Position numbers and translations under genes: made by a program
DNA from: Acidobacteriota bacterium
GTDB taxonomy: Bacteria > Actinomycetota > Actinomycetes > S36-B12 > CAIYMF01
NCBI GenBank assembly: GCA_025449595.1
Contig: JANWJC010000014.1
Span: 1-32,946 of the forward strand
DNA: 32,946 nucleotides
Direction: 5' to 3'
Shown here: positions 3,893-27,560 of the stretch, piece after piece
How the letters are laid out: each line of letters starts with the position of its first letter
Numbering within the stretch: the stretch's first letter is position 1
The notes under the pieces: model-generated
Databases searched by the model: none
Told to the model about the DNA's origin: nothing
What the model saw: only the letters and a program-made list of their open reading frames with translations

Positions 3893-5800
3893 CTAATTGT
3901 TACTCCCGATGCCCGCCGCCCGGTCAGGGCGGCGAAGCACCTCACGGATGTCGTCGAGGACGGCTGTGTCTTCGATGGTCGCGGGGACCGGTTCGTCGCG
4001 GCCGTCGGCGATCGCGCGCATCGTGCCACGCAGGATCTTTCCCGAGCGGGTCTTCGGCAGTGCCTCGACCACCGTCACGTCACGGAACGCGGCCACCGGA
4101 CCGATGTCGCGACGTACCGCAGCCACCAGCTCGTCGCGCAGCACCGCGGGATCGATGACGACACCGGCCTTGAGGACGACAAGCCCGAGCGCGAGCTGGC
4201 CCTTGAGCTCGTCGTGCACCCCGATGACTGCGCACTCCGCGACCGCGGGGTGCGCGGCCAGCACCCCCTCGATCGCGCCCGTCGAGAGCCGGTGCCCCGC
4301 GACGTTGATGACATCGTCGGTGCGCCCCATCACCCGCAGGTAACCGTCCTCGTCGAAGAAGCCGGCGTCCCCGGTCAGGTAGTAGCCATCGAAACGTGAG
4401 AGGTACGAGTCGATGTAGCGCTGGTCGTCGCCCCAGAGGGTGGGCAGCGCACCCGGCGGCAACGGCAGCTTGATTGCGATGGAGCCGTCCTCGCCCTCCG
4501 GTGCCGGCTCGCCCTGCGGGTCCAGGATCCGTACGTCCCAACCGGGGACCGGGACGCTGGCCGACCCCGCCTTCGTCGGCATCGGGTCGAGACCGCGCAG
4601 GTTGGCGACGATGGGCCAGCCGGTCTCGGTCTGCCACCAGTGGTCGACGACGGGGACGCCGAGCTTGGCGCCGGCCCATTCGTACGTCTCGGGGTCCAGT
4701 CGCTCCCCGGCCAGGAAAAGTGTTTGCAGGCAGGAGATGTCGTACTTGCTCAACTCGGCCGCGTCCGGGTCGACGCGCTTGATGGCCCGCAGCGCGGTGG
4801 GCGCGGTGAACAGTGCCTTCACGCGGTGCTCGGCGATCACCCGCCAGAAGGCACCGGCATCTGGCGTACCTACCGGCTTGCCCTCGAACATGACGGTCGT
4901 CGCACCGACGATCAGCGGCGCGTAGACGATGTAGCTGTGGCCGACGACCCACCCGACGTCGGATGCCGTCCACCACACGTCACCGGGACCGATGTCGTAG
5001 ATCGCCGCCATCGACCAGGCGAGCGCGACGGCGTGGCCGCCGGTGTCGCGTACCACGCCTTTCGGGCGCCCGGTCGTGCCGGAGGTGTAGAGGATGTACA
5101 GCGGGTCGGTTGCTGTCACGGAGACCGGCGCTGCTGGTTCTGCCTGTGATACCAGGACATCCCAGTCGACGTAACCCTCCCCGAGCTCGACCCGGTGCTG
5201 CTCGCGCTGCAGCATCACGGTGTGCTTCGGCTGGTGCGAGCTGAGCCGCAGCGCCTCCTCGACCATCGGCAGGTACTCCACGATCCGCGACGGCTCGATC
5301 CCGCACGAGGCCGCCACGACGACCGTCGGCTGCGCGTCGTCGATGCGGGCGGCGAGCTCCTTGGCTGCGAACCCGCCGAACACGACGGAGTGCACCGCGC
5401 CGATCCGGGCGCAAGCCAGCATCGCGACGATCGCCTCGGGCACCATCGGCATGTAGATCAGCACCCGGTCGCCGTGACCCACCCCGAGCGAGCTAAGCCC
5501 GCCGGCGAATCGAGCCACCTGATCGAGCAGCTCGGCGTACGTGATGCGGCGCTGACTACCCGTGACCGGGGAGTCCCACAGCACCGCGACCTGGTCACCG
5601 CGACCCTGCTCGACGTGGCGGTCCAGCGCGTTGTACGACGTGTTCAGCTCCCCGTCCGGGAACCACCGGTAGATGGGAGCGTTGCTGCCGTCCAGCGAGC
5701 AGGTCGGCTCGCGAGTCCAGTCGATGGCGCGCGCGGCCTCGAGCCAGAAACCCTCGGGGTCATCGAGACTGCGCTGGTAGGCCGCTGCGTACCCACTCAT
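3893..5800 (-). CDS. prpE: Propionyl-CoA/acetyl-CoA synthetase-like acyl-CoA ligase (PrpE-like)
   Basis: AMP-binding motif ILYTSGTTGRPKGVVRDTGGH; WWTASDVGWVVGHSYIVYAPL; WWQTETGWPI; catalytic lysine motif PKTRSGKILRGTMR. The RDTGG context favours PrpE over Acs; the symbol is tentative. Confidence 0.9.
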   Translation of the reverse strand: MSGYAAAYQRSLDDPEGFWLEAARAIDWTREPTCSLDGSNAPIYRWFPDGELNTSYNALDRHVEQGRGDQVAVLWDSPVTGSQRRITYAELLDQVARFAGGLSSLGVGHGDRVLIYMPMVPEAIVAMLACARIGAVHSVVFGGFAAKELAARIDDAQPTVVVAASCGIEPSRIVEYLPMVEEALRLSSHQPKHTVMLQREQHRVELGEGYVDWDVLVSQAEPAAPVSVTATDPLYILYTSGTTGRPKGVVRDTGGHAVALAWSMAAIYDIGPGDVWWTASDVGWVVGHSYIVYAPLIVGATTVMFEGKPVGTPDAGAFWRVIAEHRVKALFTAPTALRAIKRVDPDAAELSKYDISCLQTLFLAGERLDPETYEWAGAKLGVPVVDHWWQTETGWPIVANLRGLDPMPTKAGSASVPVPGWDVRILDPQGEPAPEGEDGSIAIKLPLPPGALPTLWGDDQRYIDSYLSRFDGYYLTGDAGFFDEDGYLRVMGRTDDVINVAGHRLSTGAIEGVLAAHPAVAECAVIGVHDELKGQLALGLVVLKAGVVIDPAVLRDELVAAVRRDIGPVAAFRDVTVVEALPKTRSGKILRGTMRAIADGRDEPVPATIEDTAVLDDIREVLRRPDRAAGIGSNN

Positions 5801-10507: not shown

Positions 10508-10644
10508 GGTTCACCGGCGTCTGGTCGACGACACGCCGTAGCGGCAGCCGAAAACGCGATCAAACGCCGGTGAACCTAGGCCAACGCGATCAAACGCCGG
10601 TGAACCCCCCGCCCTCCCAGCGCGCGATCAAACGCCGGTGAACC
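10508..10644. repeat. Clustered short repeat CGCGATCAAACGCCGGTGAACC: three direct copies plus one degenerate inverted copy
   Basis: Direct copies end at 10576, 10606 and 10644; inverted copy GGTTCACCGGCGTCTGGTCG at about 10508-10527. Confidence 0.85.
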
Positions 10645-16994: not shown

Positions 16995-18296
16995 GTGGTG
17001 AGCCAGGACGACCGCCCGACAGCGGCGCAGCCTGTGCCCGCGGGGGCGCATGAACCCTCCGAGGCGGCTGGGGCCACTCACACCAGCGGGACTTCCGGCG
17101 ACGCCGCGGGCGTAGCGGCGACCGCGCCGGCCGTTGGGCCTTCCCGGGGGGCCGTGCCTATCGAGACGACCGCGCCGACTGCGATGGCGGTGCCGGCTGC
17201 GGTCGCAGTGATGGCGTCGGATGGCTGGTACCCGGACCCGTGGACGGCCGGTCAGCGCCGGTACTGGAGCGGTGAGCGATGGACCGCGCACGTGTTCACG
17301 GACCGTACCGTCGGCGACCAGGCAGGGTCCGCCGCACGCGAGGGCGCCACGAACCCGTTCCGCGACCAGCACGCCACACCGCCGGACCCCAGCTCCGCCC
17401 CACCCCCGCACTGGGTTGGGCCGTACACCGCGCCGGTTCGGCCCACGTACGACGCACCACCACCGGTCGAGCCACCGACCAGGAGCTCGCGCAAGCCCTT
17501 CATCTGGATCGCCGTCGCGGTGACCCTCGTCGTGGCCATGATCATCGGCTTCGCTCTGACCCGGATCCCCAGCAGTACCCCCGTCGCCACCCCACTGCCG
17601 GCACCGGCACCGGTGCTTCCGACGCCGACGCCGTCGGTGCCCGCCGCCCCCGTGCAGCCGGTCCCCGACGACCTGGCCCGGCTCGGGCTGCGCCAGTCCG
17701 ACGTCACCGGCACGGTCGTGGTGAGCCCGATCATCGGCGGCACGGACGTGACGGGCCAGACCACGCTGGATCTCTGCAACGCCAACTACCCCAGCGAGTC
17801 CCGCCGCCAGGAGCGCGTGCAGGTCGCCGCCATCGACATCACCGACCCATCGAGCATGTTGCTGAGCACCGAGGCCGTGCGGTACGACAGCACTGCCGGC
17901 AGCAACCAGGCGTGGGCGGAGATCCAGGCCGCGGTGGCTGCCTGCCCGAGCACCCCGGTCACCAGCCCGACCGAAGGCACGACACTGACCACGACGTTCG
18001 GCGGTCGCCCCGACTCGAGTTGGCCGGTGGTGGCAGGCGTGAAGCGGCTGGCGTACGACGTGAGCACCGTCGACAACCTGGGGACCACTCAGCACACCGT
18101 CGTGGTGTATCTGCAGCGCGGAAACATCTTGCTGGGCGTGTACTTCCCGCAGCCCGACCAACCCCAGCTCTCGGTGCAGGGCCAGACCACGATCCCGGGC
18201 ATAGTCCACGTCTTCGAGGAACGGCTCGCGGCCCTACCCCCGTCCGGATCCACCTCGACCGGCAGCGCCACCCCCGCCCCCGGCACCACAGCCTGA
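16995..18296 (+). CDS. DUF2510 domain membrane-anchored protein with extracytoplasmic C-terminal domain
   Basis: DGWYPDPWTAGQRRYWSGERWTAHV (DUF2510 motif); single TM FIWIAVAVTLVVAMIIGFALT; Pro/Thr-rich linker. GTG start at 16995 or 16998. Confidence 0.85.
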   Translation: MVSQDDRPTAAQPVPAGAHEPSEAAGATHTSGTSGDAAGVAATAPAVGPSRGAVPIETTAPTAMAVPAAVAVMASDGWYPDPWTAGQRRYWSGERWTAHVFTDRTVGDQAGSAAREGATNPFRDQHATPPDPSSAPPPHWVGPYTAPVRPTYDAPPPVEPPTRSSRKPFIWIAVAVTLVVAMIIGFALTRIPSSTPVATPLPAPAPVLPTPTPSVPAAPVQPVPDDLARLGLRQSDVTGTVVVSPIIGGTDVTGQTTLDLCNANYPSESRRQERVQVAAIDITDPSSMLLSTEAVRYDSTAGSNQAWAEIQAAVAACPSTPVTSPTEGTTLTTTFGGRPDSSWPVVAGVKRLAYDVSTVDNLGTTQHTVVVYLQRGNILLGVYFPQPDQPQLSVQGQTTIPGIVHVFEERLAALPPSGSTSTGSATPAPGTTA

Positions 18297-18350: not shown

Positions 18351-18459
18351 CATGATCAGTAGGCAAATGGTGAGGCGGCGACGACCCAAGCCCTGCCAGT
18401 CCGTGCGTAGCAGGCTCGAATTGGCACTGGCCTACCTCACGAAATGCCTACCGATCATG
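18351..18459. repeat. Long inverted-repeat element, copy 1 (about 109 bp)
   Basis: Left arm CATGATCAGTAGGCAAATGGTGAGG; right arm CCTCACGAAATGCCTACCGATCATG. 21/25 arm match. Confidence 0.85.
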
Positions 18460-19552
18460 GACCCGCCACCGAGGTGGCCTGCCTCGCGGCGAGGGTTCGG
18501 GCTGCTCTTCGACTCCAGGTCACCAGGCACAGGACTCCGATGGCTATCTGAGGCACGAAGGAGGCGGCTCGCCAGACCAGGGTGGCGGCGGTGGCGTGGC
18601 CGGTGGAGACTCCCATGCCGGTGAGCAGCGCGATCATCGTGGCGTCCACGGTGCCGAGCCCGCCCGGCGGCAGCGGGATCATCAGCCCGATCTGTGCCAC
18701 CGCGAACGCGCCGAAGGCGACCCCGATCGAGGTCGCCGGCCCGGAGTTCTCGACCCCTCGTAGCGCCGCAAAGAAGATGAAGAACTGGGTGATCGACACC
18801 CCGAGCTGAGCGGCGGTGATGGCCGACCAGCGGCGGCGTACCAGGTCGACGATGTCGGTCCGGAACTTCACGATGAGGGGCACCACGTCCAGGTCGCGGC
18901 CCTTGCGCAACCTGCGCATCAGTGGGCCGGCGATCTTGTTCGTCCAACGGCCGAGGGTGCGGGCCAGCGGTTCACTGCGCATGATCAGCGCGAACAGCAC
19001 GATCATGACGACGAGCACTACCAGCCCGATGACCCCGATATAGACGTATGAGCCGGCGGCCTGCCCGGACGCCGCGATCGCCATGACCCCCAGGATCGGC
19101 AGCAGCAGCGTCACGAACATGCTCCAGACTCCGACCGCGCCGATCGCGGCGGTGCTGGCGGTGGGGGTGACGTCGTACGACGCGAGCATCGCGTACTGGA
19201 TGCCAAGACCGAACGCGCCGCCGGCCGGCACCCCGTTGCTGATCGCGAACGCGGCCTGGTTCAGCTGGAAGCTGGGCCAGTAGCTCAGGCCGGGCACGGC
19301 GGCGACGAACGGCAGCCCGTACCACGCGAGGTAGAGCAGCACCGCCAGCACGATGCCCACCAAGGCCGCGGCGGTCATGCTCTGCAGGGCGGTGAGTGCG
19401 TCCTGGTACGAGCCGATCTGGGGGATGACCTTGATGAAGATGATGGCGATGATCACGAGCCCGATGGCCCCGAGGATCAGCGACTTCTTCTTGTCTAGCT
19501 GAGGCGGCGCCTGCGGTGATGGGGCCTGCGGTGCTGGAGTGACCTCCGCCAT
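18455..19552 (-). CDS. Flippase-like polytopic membrane protein (lysylphosphatidylglycerol synthase TM region / UPF0104-like)
   Basis: About 8 TM helices; LNQAAFAISNGVPAGGAFGLGIQYAML and GLMIPLPPGGLGTVDATMIALLTGMGVS are characteristic of LPG_synthase_TM. Confidence 0.88.
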   Translation of the reverse strand: MAEVTPAPQAPSPQAPPQLDKKKSLILGAIGLVIIAIIFIKVIPQIGSYQDALTALQSMTAAALVGIVLAVLLYLAWYGLPFVAAVPGLSYWPSFQLNQAAFAISNGVPAGGAFGLGIQYAMLASYDVTPTASTAAIGAVGVWSMFVTLLLPILGVMAIAASGQAAGSYVYIGVIGLVVLVVMIVLFALIMRSEPLARTLGRWTNKIAGPLMRRLRKGRDLDVVPLIVKFRTDIVDLVRRRWSAITAAQLGVSITQFFIFFAALRGVENSGPATSIGVAFGAFAVAQIGLMIPLPPGGLGTVDATMIALLTGMGVSTGHATAATLVWRAASFVPQIAIGVLCLVTWSRRAARTLAARQATSVAGP

Positions 19553-19648
19553 GACACCTCCTCCGAGCCGTGAAAGGGACGCCGATGCCGCCCCCTGAAC
19601 CTACTAAGGAGGCGACGCTACTACCCGGCGCCGGGCGCAGGCGAGTTC

Positions 19649-19755
19649 CTTGATCAGTAGGCGGATCGTGAGGTGCTACGAGGGCGTCCTGCGGGATCCG
19701 TGCGGGAGAAGCCTGCAGTGGCCCCGACTGACCTCACCGAATGCCTACTGATCAT
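19649..19755. repeat. Long inverted-repeat element, copy 2 (about 107 bp)
   Basis: Left arm TTGATCAGTAGGCGGATCGTGAGG; right arm CCTCACCGAATGCCTACTGATCATG. Confidence 0.85.
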
Positions 19756-19783
19756 GAACCGATGCGCTCGGGCCCGCGCAGGG

Positions 19784-21037
19784 TCAGGCCTGGGGCGGGG
19801 TCGAGTCGATGGCGACGCGGGCGGCTTGATCCGGGTGCTGGCGCAGCCACATGCGGGCGTACCGGCACACCGGCACGACCGTCAGACCCTCGCGGTCGGC
19901 CCGGTCGACGGCAGCCTGCACCAGGCTGCCCGCGATACCGCGGCCGCCGAGGGAGTCCGGGACCTCGGTGTGCACCAGGACGAAGCGGTCGCCGCGCAAC
20001 TGGTAGATCAGCTCGGCCACCTGCCCGTCGTCGATGTAGGCGAACCGGTGGTTCGGTACGTCGTCGAAGACTTCGGGCGCTTTGCTGTCGCCCGTCGATC
20101 CGACCGGCATCGGCTTTGCTTCCAGCGCGGCGCGGTCCCACTGGGCGAGGGTCGCTGCGGCTTCGTACGTGCTCTGCAGGAACTCCAGGAGCATCGCGTC
20201 AGGGTCGGCTGAGGTTCGTACCGCTTGGTACGGCAGGAGAAACTCTCCGAGGTCCTTGTCGAAGTACGCGGCGGCCGGGGCGACGGGCCAGTCCGCGAAG
20301 CCCTCCGGCGTCGGGTAGGCGTAAGAGTAGAAGGACCCCTCCTCACTCCCGCCGGGCCAGAAGCCGGCGCTGCTGAGCTCGTGGCTGTAGGCCAGCTCCT
20401 GCACGAAATCCGCGCAGTTCGGCACACCACCGGGATGCTTTGGCGCGAGCCGGCCGGAGAACCGGCTGACGGCAAGGTCGAAAGAGCCCCAGAAGAAGTG
20501 CACCGGGCTCACCTTGCCGATGAATCGCCCTCGGAACTCGTGCATCACGCGTTGGCTCTGCAGCAGGGCCCACCAGAACCGCTGTGCCGCATCGGGATCG
20601 TACGCACGCAGCTCGGTGTCGGCCGCGAACGGGATCGCCTCGGGCACTTCGACCGGGCGGGCCATCAGCTGCAGCGAGATCCCGAGATCGTCGAGCGCGG
20701 CGATCGTGGCCGCGTAGAAGTCGGCGACGGACTGCGGCTGCAGTCGTACCTCGCGGACCTCGCCGCGGGAGGTACGGATCAGCAGGACGTGGTCGATGAA
20801 GTCGAGCTCCAGCTCCAGCCCGCGGCCCTCGACATGCATGAGGGAGGTGGTCAGCCCGCGCGCCGAGACGTACAGCGGCACCTGCCACCAGTGGTTGATC
20901 ATCGGCTCCAGCGCGAGCCGTACCTTGCCGACGACCTGGCTCCACAGGTGCAGCGTGTCGCGGGTGTCCTCCCACTTCGACAGCGTCAGCACCGGCCACG
21001 GGTCGGTGCTGGCCGGCTCGCTTCGTACCTCGCTCAT
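19784..21037 (-). CDS. DUF5996 domain fused to a C-terminal GNAT (YjdJ-type) acetyltransferase-like domain
   Basis: N-terminal WPVLTLSKWEDTRDTLHLWSQVVGKVRLALEPMINHWWQVPLYVSARGL...; PVHFFWGSFDLAVSRFSGR. C-terminal VPNHRFAYIDDGQVAELIYQLRGDRFVLVHTEVPDSLGGRGIAGSLVQAAVDRADREGLTVVPVCRYARMWLRQHP. Confidence 0.85.
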   Translation of the reverse strand: MSEVRSEPASTDPWPVLTLSKWEDTRDTLHLWSQVVGKVRLALEPMINHWWQVPLYVSARGLTTSLMHVEGRGLELELDFIDHVLLIRTSRGEVREVRLQPQSVADFYAATIAALDDLGISLQLMARPVEVPEAIPFAADTELRAYDPDAAQRFWWALLQSQRVMHEFRGRFIGKVSPVHFFWGSFDLAVSRFSGRLAPKHPGGVPNCADFVQELAYSHELSSAGFWPGGSEEGSFYSYAYPTPEGFADWPVAPAAAYFDKDLGEFLLPYQAVRTSADPDAMLLEFLQSTYEAAATLAQWDRAALEAKPMPVGSTGDSKAPEVFDDVPNHRFAYIDDGQVAELIYQLRGDRFVLVHTEVPDSLGGRGIAGSLVQAAVDRADREGLTVVPVCRYARMWLRQHPDQAARVAIDSTPPQA

Positions 21038-21290: not shown

Positions 21291-21366
21291 TGGAGCCGCC
21301 TAACGGAATCGAACCGTTGACCTATTCATTACGAGTGAATCGCTCTACCGACTGAGCTAAGGCGGC
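21291..21366 (-). tRNA. tRNA-Thr (anticodon CGT)
   Basis: Minus strand GCCGCCTTAGCTCAGTCGGTAGAGCGATTCACTCGTAATGAATAGGTCAACGGTTCGATTCCGTTAGGCGGCTCCA: 7-bp acceptor stem, D arm, anticodon stem ATTCA/TGAAT with loop CTCGTAA, T-loop TTCGATT, encoded CCA. Confidence 0.96.
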
Positions 21367-25171: not shown

Positions 25172-25195
25172 GGTTCACCGGCGTTCGGTCGCGCG
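25172..25195 (-). repeat. Isolated inverted copy of the CGCGATCAAACGCCGGTGAACC repeat
   Basis: GGTTCACCGGCGTTCGGTCGCGCG; its reverse complement differs at 2 of 22 positions from the copies near 10.6 kb. Confidence 0.7.
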
Positions 25196-27324: not shown

Positions 27325-27423
27325 CATGATCAGTAGGCATTTCGTGAGGTCTGACCCGGCCATTTCGTGCGTCCCACGCACGCGGGTACCGGCAACTACC
27401 TCACGATCCGCCTACTGATCATG
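27325..27423. repeat. Long inverted-repeat element, copy 3 (about 99 bp)
   Basis: Left arm CATGATCAGTAGGCATTTCGTGAGG; right arm CCTCACGATCCGCCTACTGATCATG; internal hairpin CGTGCGT-CCC-ACGCACG at 27366-27382. Confidence 0.88.
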
Positions 27424-27466: not shown

Positions 27467-27560
27467 CGCACGTCCGGAAGTGACTGGGCGCGTCAGCCGC
27501 ACGTCCGGAAGAGACTGGGCAGGTCAGCTGCGCGGCTCGCGTGACCGGGCCGGTCAGCTG
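27467..27560 (+). repeat. Degenerate tandem repeat of about 31 bp reaching the topA 3' end
   Basis: CGCACGTCCGGAAGTGACTGGGCGCGTCAGC / CGCACGTCCGGAAGAGACTGGGCAGGTCAGC / CGCGGCTCGCGTGACCGGGCCGGTCAGCTG. Confidence 0.7.

Follow-up and report, generated by a model that had tools for sequence, protein, structure and literature searches.

Short palindromes dispersed through bacterial genomes are usually explained as RNA hairpins or as dead transposon ends. The MIRU of mycobacteria, short intergenic repeats of a high-GC actinobacterium that have been described as overlapping stop codons, and the attC sites of integrons, in which inverted arms are split by an unpaired spacer and which lie at the 3' ends of genes, each bear a likeness to the element that we describe here. 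So do the REPINs or BIMEs (REP doublets) of Pseudomonas and enterobacteria, in which a spacer of restricted length separates two conserved units in inverted orientation (PMC3116915; PMC3733652). REP repeats are intergenic, occupy mostly convergent and co-directional gaps and lend stop codons, their ends often supplying those of the flanking open reading frames (PMC3733652); the GTAG and CGTC repeats that the same study lists come from other phyla, and Actinobacteria go unmentioned in it. Correia/NEMIS and other bacterial MITEs are likewise dispersed and non-coding, measure ~100 bp, carry ~25-bp terminal inverted repeats and, as our element does, come in two size classes (PMC2229807).

The element is a non-coding repeat scattered between the ordinary genes of one high-GC genome, which is probably actinobacterial to judge by its composition and gene content, and three copies are present in the window, the whole 32,946-nt stretch of DNA that was analysed (Table 1). 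In the draft genome from which the window was taken (2.59 Mb in 228 contigs, 73% complete and hence with about 27% missing), the arm pattern has 31 forward and 28 reverse matches where its reversed-pattern control has 1 and 0, and a covariance model of the family finds ~33 loci, a few of them decayed. By both measures the repeats are far beyond chance. The elements are intergenic and lie beside unrelated housekeeping genes.

Table 1. Coordinates in the window of the three element copies and of the gene bracketed by copies 1 and 2.
Feature	Position	Strand	Remark
Copy 1, left arm	18351..18376	+	CATGATCAGTAGGCAAATGGTGAGGC
Copy 1, central GTGC	18403..18406	+	on dyad; 105-bp class
Copy 1, right arm (inverted)	18434..18459	-	CATGATCGGTAGGCATTTCGTGAGGT
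TGA stop of the PF03706 gene	18455..18457	-	bases 1-3 of copy 1 right arm
LPG_synthase_TM / flippase-like membrane protein gene	18455..19552	-	365 aa; PF03706
Copy 2, left arm	19649..19674	+	
Copy 2, central GTGC	19700..19703	+	104-bp class
Copy 2, right arm (inverted)	19731..19756	-	
Copy 3	27327-27421		95-bp class; between convergent genes; arm pattern match
Copy 3, left arm	27325..27350	+	
Copy 3, central GTGC and mirrored GCAC	27367..27381	.	GTGC 27367-27370; GCAC 27378-27381
Copy 3, right arm (inverted)	27398..27423	-	

Copy 1 extends from TGATCA to TGATCA at 18353-18457, or over 18351-18459 when the conserved CA/TG is included, and copy 2 covers 19651-19754, its arms with their outer bases reaching from 19649 to ~19756; the left arms start with CATGATCAGTAGGC at 18351 in copy 1 and with CTTGATCAGTAGGC at 19649 in copy 2. 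A sequence-only reading had already placed two inverted-repeat copies beside the 18455-19552 gene and the TGA stop of this gene inside the right arm of copy 1, and both placements are confirmed here. The gene product matches PF03706 (E 1.1e-23) and has orthologues in most of the relatives searched. Copy 1 occupies the gap in which a plus-strand DUF2510 protein gene (stop at 18296) and the flippase gene converge. Copy 2 lies upstream of the flippase start, at a distance of 98 nt, and downstream of a DUF5996-GNAT gene (19784-21037), 29 nt from the stop of the latter. None of the genes neighbouring the flippase gene was found within 1.5 kb of its orthologues in the relatives.

The same reading had raised the possibility that the two copies excise or invert the gene that they enclose. 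A functional pair of this kind would have one copy on each side of its gene, as is seen here, but we consider it hardly credible: the exact identity common to copies 1 and 2 amounts to only ~12-17 bp, their interiors differ, most other copies are solitary and stand beside unrelated housekeeping genes, and no recombinase gene occurs among the neighbours scanned. Given a third copy in the window and the ~33 loci in the draft genome, the bracketing of the flippase gene looks incidental.

Each arm begins with TGA, so that a gene reading into the element by the appropriate frame ends there. Among the 32 gene ends close to elements, this arm TGA is the exact stop of five (those of the flippase, a trehalose-phosphatase, a DUF3037 protein, a ThrE-like exporter and an unassigned protein), and none of the 32 stops on the arm TAG that is present in another frame. 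One of the two options raised earlier for copy 1, that the element supplied the stop codon of the flippase gene, is thus supported, and the same arm TGA serves at five loci. It did so without evident loss, since element-free flippase orthologues show the same conserved block followed by tails that vary in a similar way; this comparison of C-termini, which the sequence-only reading had suggested as a check, revealed no evident truncation. Stop-codon lending can thus recur, apparently without harm, as a by-product of repeats settling at the ends of genes.

Both neighbours could be called for 30 elements, outside the window with a simple codon-based gene caller, and 10 of these elements lie in convergent, 16 in co-directional and four in divergent gaps. 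Convergent gaps, which make up 11-15% of the background intergenic DNA, hold 10 of the 30 elements (P 0.001-0.01), and the location downstream of genes is real. Stop lending in combination with convergent and co-directional placement is precedented in REP repeats.

The inverted arms measure 26 bp (consensus CATGATCRGTAGGCRNNTSGTGAGGT) and most of their positions are invariant in the 54 arms of 27 good elements, a conservation that is inflated by the initial collection of the elements through their arms; it ends beyond -4 outward and +24 inward. When each element is compared with its interior-nearest relative, 23% of the aligned interior bases differ (plus gaps) as against 4.7% of the constrained arm positions, and several pairs whose interiors are ~81% identical show zero changes at the constrained positions, which suggests selection in place. 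In the copy at 4125 of locus L043, the arms are about as diverged as the interior. The unchanged arms of the pairs with ~81% identical interiors are at odds with the view that the family is a relic of MITEs, old transposon ends that have no present role and whose arms are conserved only because active copies needed their ends. Dispersal next to unrelated neighbours, TIR-like 26-bp ends, a length of ~100 bp, a patchy species distribution and a few decayed copies would all suit such a relic. Nevertheless, it lacks recent copies, a target-site duplication and a distant arm pair that would mark a parent element (none is present in the assembly, from which about 27% of the genome is missing), and we rate it as quite improbable.

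No consistent duplication of the flanks was detected at the elements, although old insertions could have lost it, and no pair of filled and empty sites was found; past mobility is consequently something that we only infer. The TGATCA at both ends was considered as a duplication and rejected, as it is a palindrome and the two arms vary independently of each other at its position 6. No binding protein was found and, among the genes neighbouring the elements that were scanned, no transposase; neither Y1_Tnp nor RAYT proteins were found in the 73% complete genome or in ten relatives including the congener, and the elements have neither paralogous neighbours nor a larger repeated unit around them, except that a few copies resemble one another locally in their flanks. 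At L043 (3997-4218), two tandem elements with similar flanks are 33 bp apart; a third element (L044, 1552-1646) would follow on the far side of the next gene if contigs C79 and C91 are joined, as is suggested by an identical gene stretch on both contigs. At L037 (contig C35), three or four related elements are clustered within 4.4 kb, two of them with similar upstream flanks (GGCCCATCTTCA), which suggests that they arose by local duplication.

The 30 paired elements fall into two length classes that are one helical turn apart, 20 elements at 94-97 bp and 10 at 104-105 bp, with none in between; decayed copies recovered only by the covariance model also fit both classes. In the alignment, the 10-bp difference is confined to one spacer. 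The classes could partly reflect two founder copies that have experienced few indels since. Of 33 elements (31 from the own genome and two from the congener G001), 27 carry a central GTGC at its expected offset, compared with a mean of 2.2 and a maximum of 9 in shuffles, a contrast that is to be read with the offsets having been chosen after the alignment was seen and with related copies being non-independent. In the long class this motif is half a base off the dyad, and in the short class it is displaced to one side by ~5.5 bp. By arithmetic, the inner arm motif is separated from GTGC by ~21.5 or 31.5-32.5 bp, equalling two or three helical turns. Arm types swapped between related copies had hinted at an inversion of the interior within elements; this idea was dropped, as the orientations of flanks and interiors agree.

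Whole elements are predicted to fold strongly as RNA (-52.6 to -65.1 kcal/mol, z -4.3 to -8.8), and to this extent the earlier suggestion of a bidirectional 3' hairpin or mRNA stabiliser is weakly supported. Such folds, together with the excess in convergent gaps and the closeness to stop codons, are what one would expect of a bidirectional terminator or 3' stabiliser acting between genes as an RNA hairpin. The details of pairing, however, speak against it. For the interior, folding does not exceed that of shuffles (mean z -0.27), and in-register pairing amounts to 267 of 663 positions vs 262.5 in shuffles. Arm pairing and covariation scored on the alignment are below all 500 shuffles, the variable arm positions when pooled being paired in 48 of 135 cases vs 67.5 expected (a further decayed copy, with an assumed length of 105 bp, is counted here and in the other 27-element figures on arm pairing). 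An interior that is not folded beyond chance and arms that pair below chance count against an RNA hairpin under selection and favour helically phased duplex-DNA sites. By eye, no run of T is seen after the arms in the listed flanks, so that the U-run of a terminator is missing; four elements are in divergent gaps, and an RNA hairpin would need neither a fixed central motif nor helical length steps. Taken together, we find an RNA role of this type distinctly improbable.

Pairing is depleted at arm positions 13, 14, 15 and 17, which are paired in 32 of 108 pooled cases vs 51.4 expected. Position 14 is paired in only three of 27 elements (10.6 expected) and has a purine in one arm and a pyrimidine in the other in 22 of 27 (P 0.0006), an excess that persists after related copies are collapsed (13 of 18, P 0.03). 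Below-chance pairing at this position could denote a hairpin with a required internal loop, and the purine/pyrimidine excess is the best support for a REPIN- or attC-like reading, according to which the functional form is a folded single strand (an ssDNA hairpin or a cruciform) with an unpaired internal loop at positions 13-17 that is recognised by a trans-acting enzyme. Arms that are almost fully complementary except at these positions are consistent with it, and REPINs likewise have conserved ends and a length-critical spacer (PMC3116915). Against it stand the absence of Y1_Tnp/RAYT noted above and the behaviour of a single arm, which barely folds (0 to -7 kcal/mol) and has no common stem. 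Moreover, REPINs are reported to show compensatory changes, but the interior of the element pairs only at the chance level, and a single-stranded loop would not predict the 10-bp length step. We therefore regard a folded-strand form as unlikely. On balance, what is kept is the sequence of the arms, irrespective of pairing, along with the total length.

The family has a narrow distribution. With up to two mismatches, the arm pattern matched neither the congener nor any of 15 other family members among the 59 relatives searched, in which its single match lies elsewhere in the order; a looser pattern yielded one extra match in another family of the same order that is probably fortuitous. The covariance model recovered two elements with diverged arms, 105 and 106 bp in length, from G001, and this congener is the only one of the relatives searched that has elements. 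Pattern and protein scans of the genome collection brought up no other carriers, viral contigs did not match the element, and BLAST searches of plasmids and phages gave chance-level matches only. No Rfam family matched the element above its gathering score, the only such match being a tRNA at 21294-21366.

The genome also contains a second, unrelated dispersed family with a 20-bp unit (CGATCAAACGCCGGTGAACC), which is represented in the window at 10508-10644 and 25172-25191 and which 71 sites in the own genome match with three mismatches or fewer. Its units form inverted clusters in which those on the same strand are separated by 29-31 bp (38 in one case) and the gap across the dyad is 49 bp in every cluster read. 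A one-sided ACGACACGCCGT is often present close to the centre; the cluster in the window sits between convergent genes. In addition, a 31-bp unit (CGCACGTCCGGAAGTGACTGGGCGCGTCAGC) present in two tandem copies of 90% identity (27467-27528) adjoins copy 3 of the element.

We propose that the family was probably amplified long ago in the form of small non-autonomous mobile elements, and that intergenic DNA, for the most part downstream of genes, is where the elements would now be kept. Each of them would constitute a tripartite protein site in duplex DNA that is built from two inverted 26-bp arms and the GTGC on or near the dyad, with spacings of ~2+3 turns (94-97 bp) or 3+3 turns (104-105 bp) holding the three parts on one face of the helix, where a putative arm-bridging protein, either a recombinase or a nucleoid protein, might engage them. 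The 10-bp step, the fixed central motif and the absent covariation all point to duplex-DNA spacing as the conserved trait. Judged from sequence, we give even chances to this reading of the elements as putative phased sites within an old dispersed family. A wider proposal is decidedly speculative and, to our minds, rather improbable: a genus-restricted chromosomal site system, in which phased dyad sites, mainly at gene ends, and a dedicated arm-bridging protein would organise or insulate the chromosome between genes, with the second inverted family as a sibling.

To our knowledge, MIRU have not been described as dyad elements with phased arms, and the element differs from them in this respect. 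From attC sites it is set apart, at the loci seen, by arms that lack the GTTRRRY/RYYYAAC core and by copies scattered beside housekeeping genes instead of cassette arrays. The element shares terminal inverted repeats, a length of <200 bp, non-coding character and dispersal with bacterial MITEs; the Correia size classes, however, are ~50 bp apart whereas those of the element differ by 10 bp, the TA ends and target duplications typical of Correia elements were not found, and the sequences are unrelated (PMC2229807). REPINs are closest in plan to the element, but a REPIN unit is a short REP palindrome while a single arm of the element is no hairpin by itself; in addition, RAYT was not found and the spacer is devoid of compensatory pairing. 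With these differences, and with neither a target duplication nor a parent element found, we file the element as a REPIN/MITE-like variant that is a member of neither group. The family is a narrowly distributed one of this type with an unusual spacing, and the fixed central GTGC and the 10-bp length step are features of its own.
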